From a virus, in IMG/VR virus record IMGVR_UViG_3300025141_000775, positions 1 through 23,606 of that record: DNA of 23,606 bases, one strand, 5' to 3'. Positions 19,917 through 21,101 of the stretch are shown one piece after another. Under the pieces are notes generated by a model. The model was not told the DNA's origin. It saw only the letters and a list, made by a program, of their open reading frames with translations, and did no database searches. Made by a program: the position numbers and the translations under genes. Position 1 is the first letter of the stretch, and each line of letters opens with the position of its first letter.

Positions 19917-21101
19917 ATGCTATTTCAAACGTTTGATGACAAAGATAATTGCGCATTAATATACCAAAACGGTCAGTTTTATACAACCCAATCCGATTTG
20001 ACCCTGACATCCACCTGGACATACGCCAATTACCTACGCGATAATGATATAGAATACGCACAATTATGGACTCAAGGATCGTCCCTAGCCCAATCTTGCC
20101 CTTCCTACCTGGCTGAGCATCTTAGAGAGGTTGAGACACGTCTAAAGGCCTTTATTCGCTCTTGTGGAATTGCCGGAGTAGATCTGGACGATGTGTGCTT
20201 TTATGAATTGGTGCCTCAAGCCTTTTTGCGCGATTACGCCAACATTAAAAATGAAATCTCGCAACATGTTTTTCAGAAAATTAAACGGCCCGACAATTAC
20301 CACCAATTGTTGAAGATTGTTAAGGTTATTTCCGATATCAGGTACCGCCCCCTCGATTTGGATTTAACAAAGATGAACAAAGCTGCTATAAGAGATAGGA
20401 ACATGTTTAAAACTCTTTCTTCTTGTAAGCGTACCGTTGTTTATGACCCGTTTAAGACCATCACCGGTCGGCTGGCCACCAAAAGTCAGACTTTCCCGGC
20501 ACTCACACTGGGCCGAGAATATCGAAACGTTGTAACCCCTACCAATGATTGGCTTTTTGAGCTTGATTTTAATGCCGCAGAGTTACGAACGGTATTGGCA
20601 CTCTTGGGAAATGAACAACCCCTAGAGGACCTTCATGATTGGAATATAAAAAATATTTTTTCCACTCCCATGAGCCGGGAAGAAGCCAAGAAGAAGATCT
20701 TCGCGTGGCTTTACAACCCTAATAACCAAGAGCATGAGATTAACGCTATATATAATAGAGACCGGATCAAGGAACTATATTTCCAAGATGGACGCGTGAC
20801 CACCGATTTTAGTCGTACGATTGAGTGCGACGACTTCCACGCCACGAATTATGTGATCCAGTCCACCGCGGCCGATCTTTTGTTTGAGCAGATGTATGAT
20901 GTGTGGGAGTATTTACGGGATAAGAAATCCTTCATTAAGTTTTGTAACCATGACTCTATTATGATTGATTTGGCCGCGGAAGATCAAGGGTGCGTGAACG
21001 AAATTAAAGAACTCTTCAGCAACACCCGATACGGGAAATTTAAAATTAATTGCCTAGGCGGAAAAAGCTGGGGGAACATGAAACAGCTTTTGGTTCACTA
21101 A
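19917..21101 (+). CDS. Family-A (Pol I-like) DNA polymerase domain protein, short, no exonuclease visible
   Basis: 394 aa. Residues 176-224 read YDPFKTITGRLATKS...YRNVVTP...LFELDFNAAELR, matching family-A TGRL (183-186) and motif A (catalytic D217, steric-gate E222, R224). Motif B follows the R-x3-K-x3-F-x3-Y pattern (R254, K258, F262, Y266). NYVIQSTAAD (311-320) matches the conserved 'N..IQ..AAD' helix. Motif C is HDS (345-347), where the family has HDE; the catalytic D346 is kept, the following Glu is lost. Residues 1-150 show no DEDD exonuclease motifs and are too short for exonuclease plus thumb, so this is a minimal palm/fingers protein or one part of a split enzyme. T4-like phages normally use a family-B polymerase (gp43). 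Its own sigma-70 promoter precedes it. The ribosome-binding site is weak (CAGGG). Activity is not certain. Confidence 0.75.
   Translation: MLFQTFDDKDNCALIYQNGQFYTTQSDLTLTSTWTYANYLRDNDIEYAQLWTQGSSLAQSCPSYLAEHLREVETRLKAFIRSCGIAGVDLDDVCFYELVPQAFLRDYANIKNEISQHVFQKIKRPDNYHQLLKIVKVISDIRYRPLDLDLTKMNKAAIRDRNMFKTLSSCKRTVVYDPFKTITGRLATKSQTFPALTLGREYRNVVTPTNDWLFELDFNAAELRTVLALLGNEQPLEDLHDWNIKNIFSTPMSREEAKKKIFAWLYNPNNQEHEINAIYNRDRIKELYFQDGRVTTDFSRTIECDDFHATNYVIQSTAADLLFEQMYDVWEYLRDKKSFIKFCNHDSIMIDLAAEDQGCVNEIKELFSNTRYGKFKINCLGGKSWGNMKQLLVH

Follow-up and report, generated by a model that had tools for sequence, protein, structure and literature searches.

A conserved, predicted exonuclease-free family-A DNA polymerase of the divPolA1 type in a Far-T4 phage lineage that encodes DnaE

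Diverged family-A DNA polymerases without a working 3'-5' exonuclease have been described as divPolA1 in 14 phages of 155-190 kb, Flavobacterium phage immuto included (Yutin et al. 2024, Virol J 21:200, PMC11348598). In addition, these phages have a 'regular' polymerase, which belongs to family A, B or C, and carry conserved replication genes downstream; a truncated thumb is a further divPolA1 trait. Of the two enzymes, the regular polymerase is the one with the less obvious role (PMC11348598). A polymerase built in this way is feasible, as an engineered Klenow enzyme without proofreading domain, HoLaMa, is active (PMC6457538), although HoLaMa was made from E. coli Pol I with stabilizing mutations and is not natural. 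Bacterial DNA polymerase I shares the palm and fingers motifs with the protein analyzed here, and its N-terminal domain is related to the phage FEN. Nonetheless, it measures about 930 aa against about 400, and the cellular layout of 5'-nuclease, 3'-5' exonuclease and polymerase in one chain is not found in the phage, where the 5'-nuclease is encoded by a separate gene (FEN) and the 3'-5' exonuclease is absent. Rhodothermus phage RM378 likewise has a Far-T4 capsid and polymerase functions on separate genes. It was considered as an earlier case of a family-A enzyme in two parts and rejected, since its split enzyme is of family B, with the PolB exonuclease domain and the PolB polymerase domain in separate genes; a family-profile search found no homologue of the mini-PolA in RM378.

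The window analyzed here is a 23.6-kb IMG/VR fragment (23,606 nucleotides). Its capsid protein is closest to those of Microcystis phage Mel-JY01, immuto and RM378, which are Far-T4 phages, and by this sequence relationship the marine phage of the window is a Far-T4 relative. A Gp23 capsid protein, a tail sheath, a T4_baseplate protein and a gp32-like single-stranded-DNA-binding protein are recognized in the window, in agreement with the T4-like neighborhood named in the original prediction. Two adjacent paralogues (9276-9818 and 9838-10392) both match one single gene in each of two relative contigs (G004 and G008); from their position after the sheath gene, they look like duplicated tail-tube genes.

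The predicted mini family-A DNA polymerase of the divPolA1 type is encoded at 19917-21101 on the plus strand as an ORF of 394 aa that runs from ATG to stop. The complete motif series reported in the original prediction (TGRL, DFNAAELR, R-x3-K-x3-F-x3-Y, N..IQSTAAD and HDS) is present: TGRL lies at residues 183-186 and is followed by DFNAAELR with D217, E222 and R224, the O-helix R254-x3-K258-x3-F262-x3-Y266, N311..Q315-STAAD and motif C H345-D346-S347. The sole Pfam match is PF00476 (DNA_pol_A), which scores above its cut-off (41.1 versus 34.3 bits; E = 1.4e-10), and PHROG 17 (DNA polymerase) is matched with E = 3e-13. A family profile made from a 13-row homologue alignment matches DNA polymerase I chains in the PDB with E-values down to 2e-8. 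With the same alignment as input, AlphaFold2 returns a model with a pLDDT of 91.6 and a pTM of 0.90, for which the top Foldseek matches are all family-A polymerases (Bst, M. smegmatis, Klenow, apicoplast; E about 1e-12), so that the lack of a PolA fold, which would have spoken against the assignment, did not materialize. Pol nu and Pol theta are among the weaker profile and structure matches. In the model, the stretch ahead of TGRL comprises about 180 residues with long helices. No exonuclease domain is detected by Pfam in the 394 aa, which bears out the earlier remark that exonuclease motifs are missing. As judged from profiles and model, the ORF is an intact, strongly conserved, exonuclease-free family-A polymerase fold.

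This conservation was assessed with homologues from IMG/VR, where one search returned 29 loci and another at least 600 pattern stretches and at least 80 loci. The conservation sample comprises 108 homologous ORFs in the loci read; 99 of these reach 370 aa or more and are close to full length, and there are 90 distinct sequences. Nearly all of the 99 measure 392-430 residues from stop to stop. D217, R224, R254, K258, Y266, Q315, H345 and D346 are each invariant (90/90 distinct homologues), while E222, which we take to be the steric-gate position (numbering E710), is kept in 89 out of 90; selectivity for dNTPs may be expected from this retained glutamate. The dN/dS ratio of the mini-PolA gene is about 0.03 (0.0043/0.132) in comparison with a 99% sister (L003) and about 0.06 in comparison with an 83% relative (L004), for which the synonymous distance is near saturation. 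Together with the invariant catalytic residues, these low ratios suggest purifying selection and a conserved active site. A truncation, frameshift or assembly error that would have separated the gene from a full PolA was considered and is ruled out by the equal size of the 99 homologues and by dN/dS values far below 1.

The residue after HD in motif C is S in 83, N in 5 and A in 2 of the 90 distinct homologues and never E, while HD itself occurs in all of them. The HDS noticed in place of HDE was thus read correctly, and by the sequences HDS/N/A is a trait of the clade. Because the family-A profile is matched and the catalytic residues are in place, we treat the missing glutamate as a clade variant. 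The motif-C glutamate is not known to be essential for polymerase chemistry. Polymerase activity could nevertheless be altered, given that the third residue of motif C is never Glu and that immuto and Mel-JY01 combine YDA with His. One could go further and regard the protein as a catalytically altered or dead PolA that serves as a DNA-binding or replisome scaffold protein, possibly with the adjoining FtsZ-like protein, as the loss of the glutamate in all members, the YDA of immuto and Mel-JY01 and the abutting or overlapping polA and FtsZ-like genes would allow. The catalytic Asp pair and the Arg, Lys and Tyr of the O-helix are retained in 90/90, however, which is unexpected for a dead enzyme and makes this reading unlikely.

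Among known proteins, the first protein of immuto is the closest counterpart. The mini-PolA profile matches immuto gp001 with E = 3.4e-13 and the regular PolA of immuto with 4e-4; hhalign of the family likewise gives 98% (E = 1.7e-13) for gp001 and 17% (E = 0.0014) for the regular PolA. The homology thus extends to the named divPolA1 members, the immuto phages (MW353175-7). In addition, the published divPolA1 situation recurs, with a regular polymerase (DnaE, in the sister and relative contigs), a lost exonuclease and replication genes downstream in 108 out of 108 loci. Homology and situation together therefore place the window protein in this already known group. The mini family-A polymerase that the original prediction noticed in a T4-like setting is real; its type was already published in 2024. 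The related divPolA2 is described with a unique N-terminal globular domain where the thumb would be and with a variable gene neighborhood (Yutin et al. 2024); such variability is not seen here, the neighborhood of the mini-PolA being invariant. Like the mini-PolA gene, the gene of immuto gp001 lies upstream of RecA, FEN and helicase. Yet, gp001 has YDA as motif C and His for the Glu of motif A, whereas the present clade has HDS/N/A, keeps the Glu and is about 45 aa shorter. Similarly, Mel-JY01 (PP395634.1) encodes a 'hypothetical protein', WWT39333.1 (50397-51623; locus L057:397-1623), that matches the mini-PolA profile with E = 9e-11. It is located upstream of RecA, FEN and a gp41-type helicase as well, but differs from the clade by a YDA motif C, by His for the Glu of motif A, by a PolB replicase in the same genome and by the absence of a Pfam match. 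In the record of this cultured phage, it is the FEN that carries the label 'DNA polymerase I', while the divPolA1-like polymerase is left unannotated.

The replicase of the lineage was inferred from a 99%-identical sister contig of 65 kb (G001) and from relatives of 130-193 kb. The sister encodes a family-C polymerase, DnaE (G001:30080-33499), and DnaE is found in 12 out of 16 relative contigs, including all eight of at least 130 kb; the four without it are fragments of 36-104 kb. The protein counts 1151 aa with PHP, NTPase, finger and HHH domains and matches TIGR00594 with 574 bits. When it is aligned with Taq Pol III alpha, the PHP domains agree in the stretches HxH, DHGN, E, H and D-x-H; as these carry the metal ligands, the phage DnaE may proofread by itself. 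A family-B polymerase (PF00136) is present in none of 14 contigs and, in a second search, in none of 16 IMG/VR contigs. The inspection for gp43 that the original prediction had in mind thus ends with DnaE instead of a family-B enzyme. The contigs examined hold one PolA each and no second one. PF01612 (DNA_pol_A_exo1) is absent from 14 out of 14 contigs and the RNase_T-type exonuclease PF00929 from nine out of ten, the tenth carrying one at G025:172392-172892. A reading of the gene list of G004 did not identify a primase, clamp or clamp loader. With DnaE in the sister and in every relative contig of at least 130 kb, and with no family B, second PolA or PolA-type exonuclease, the replicase appears to have been replaced and the mini-PolA to be extra: the sequences support a bacterial-type DnaE as the replicase of the lineage and the mini-PolA as an additional polymerase.

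This evidence also separates the two options of a split or replaced replicase that had been put forward. The second is borne out by DnaE, while the first fails, as neither an exonuclease-only partner nor a second polA fragment was found. The apparent division of the family-B exonuclease and polymerase domains over two genes in RM378 lends some plausibility to a mini-PolA that works with a separate 3'-5' exonuclease, but given the exonuclease counts above, the 99 homologues of equal length and the lack of a second PolA piece, a split replicase, or a truncated or frameshifted PolA, is largely refuted and deserves hardly any credence. The roles could conversely be swapped, with the mini-PolA as main replicase and DnaE as accessory enzyme. 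Its surroundings are the more conserved replication neighborhood, and in divPolA1 phages the role of the regular polymerase was found less obvious (PMC11348598). A 394-aa polymerase without proofreading or a recognized processivity element is nonetheless a poor match for this task, and DnaE, a large protein with its full set of domains, is the more conserved of the two (63-66% versus 41-45% identity), which renders the swap very unlikely.

In all 108 loci read, the recognized genes occur in one order on one strand: the upstream gene, polA, FtsZ-like, gp32, RecA, FEN, DnaB and ribonucleotide reductase. The upstream neighbor (18665-19867, plus strand; 400 aa) is conserved and syntenic in 91 loci, and no family match was found for it. 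The next recognized gene after polA, always present in the lineage (77/77 where the contig is long enough), encodes a predicted tubulin/FtsZ-fold protein of 289 aa (21111-21980, plus strand). Its model has a pLDDT of 91.4 and FtsZ/TubZ as best PDB matches (E = 6e-13; TM about 0.7), while the Pfam Tubulin profile reaches just E = 0.0014. It abuts polA, or overlaps it in some loci, and no FtsZ-like gene occupies the place between polA and gp32 in immuto or Mel-JY01. The gp32-like single-stranded-DNA-binding protein follows at 22024-22764 on the plus strand (PF08804, E = 1e-14; PHROG 1192, E = 8e-29). FEN and DnaB occur in 39 out of 40 and 26 out of 27 loci with sufficient room. In FEN, found in 16 out of 21 contigs, the 5'-3' exonuclease domains known from DNA polymerase I are recognized, and its best NCBIfam model is the DNA polymerase I N-terminus (E = 2e-43).

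The location of the mini-PolA beside gp32, RecA, FEN and DnaB, with DnaE also in the lineage, supports the earlier suggestion of an accessory polymerase close to gp32. With a probability of roughly 0.5, we infer that it is a divPolA1-type accessory polymerase without proofreading, a gap filler that acts together with the separate FEN as a DNA polymerase I divided over two genes, the mini-PolA being its polymerase part. FEN, as a Pol I-type 5'-nuclease, would remove RNA primers or flaps, the mini-PolA would fill short gaps on gp32-coated DNA in Okazaki-fragment maturation and RecA-dependent repair, and DnaE would take care of bulk synthesis. Loss of proofreading would be tolerable because the patches are short. 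Against this role, T4 matures Okazaki fragments without PolA, and in the present phages the maturation could be left to the host Pol I. Co-location with FEN is moreover no demonstration of joint action. A recombination or repair polymerase that extends RecA-made D-loops or bypasses lesions with gp32 and RecA, independent of FEN, is possible but doubtful. RecA (48/48) and gp32 (66/66) are, where there is room, linked as tightly as FEN, and the mini-PolA lacks proofreading like Pol nu and Pol theta; FEN is equally conserved, though, and no lesion-bypass feature such as insertion loops is seen. On these data, the mini-PolA may serve in lagging-strand maturation, in recombination-dependent synthesis or in both.

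In Mel-JY01 the cassette accompanies a PolB replicase and in immuto a full 777-aa PolA replicase; the mini-PolA thus goes with the SSB/RecA/FEN/DnaB cassette rather than with any one replicase. More tentatively, the split DNA polymerase I of Far-T4 phages (PolA and FEN) may be a fixed module that outlasts swaps between A, B and C replicases and that is coupled in the DnaE lineage to an FtsZ-like protein, maybe as partner of the polymerase. The divPolA1 group, published with 14 genomes, now counts about 100 examined loci plus hundreds of pattern matches (at least 600). The present analysis adds that the motif-C change is a clade trait, that all long contigs tested of the lineage are DnaE-only, that Mel-JY01 has a homologue, that the pairing with a Pol I-type FEN is fixed across about 100 loci and that an FtsZ-like gene is the neighbor. 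If DnaE replicates and the mini-PolA is an additional enzyme, retained when replicases are exchanged, the oddity of a T4-like phage with a mini-PolA is resolved, and the benefit of a second polymerase without proofreading to the phage becomes testable; the shared motif-C change and the FtsZ-like neighbor are left to explain.

Some further observations concern the relatives. Contig G004 encodes a 1048-aa fusion of calcineurin-like nuclease and SMC-like ATPase domains (G004:92230-95376; L037:12230-15376) that resembles a fused gp47 and gp46. It also carries a PurA-like adenylosuccinate synthase gene (G004:186849-187886; L042:6849-7886). A link to 2-aminoadenine (Z) DNA was considered and rejected, as this gene is PurA-like and not PurZ-like (283.9 versus 142.8 bits, both below cut-off). 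Finally, bacterial genomes yielded a single match, a syntenic phage cassette in a 'candidate division WOR-3' MAG chromosome (L137; CP070664.1, about 2242049-2263236), which is either a hint at the host or assembly contamination.
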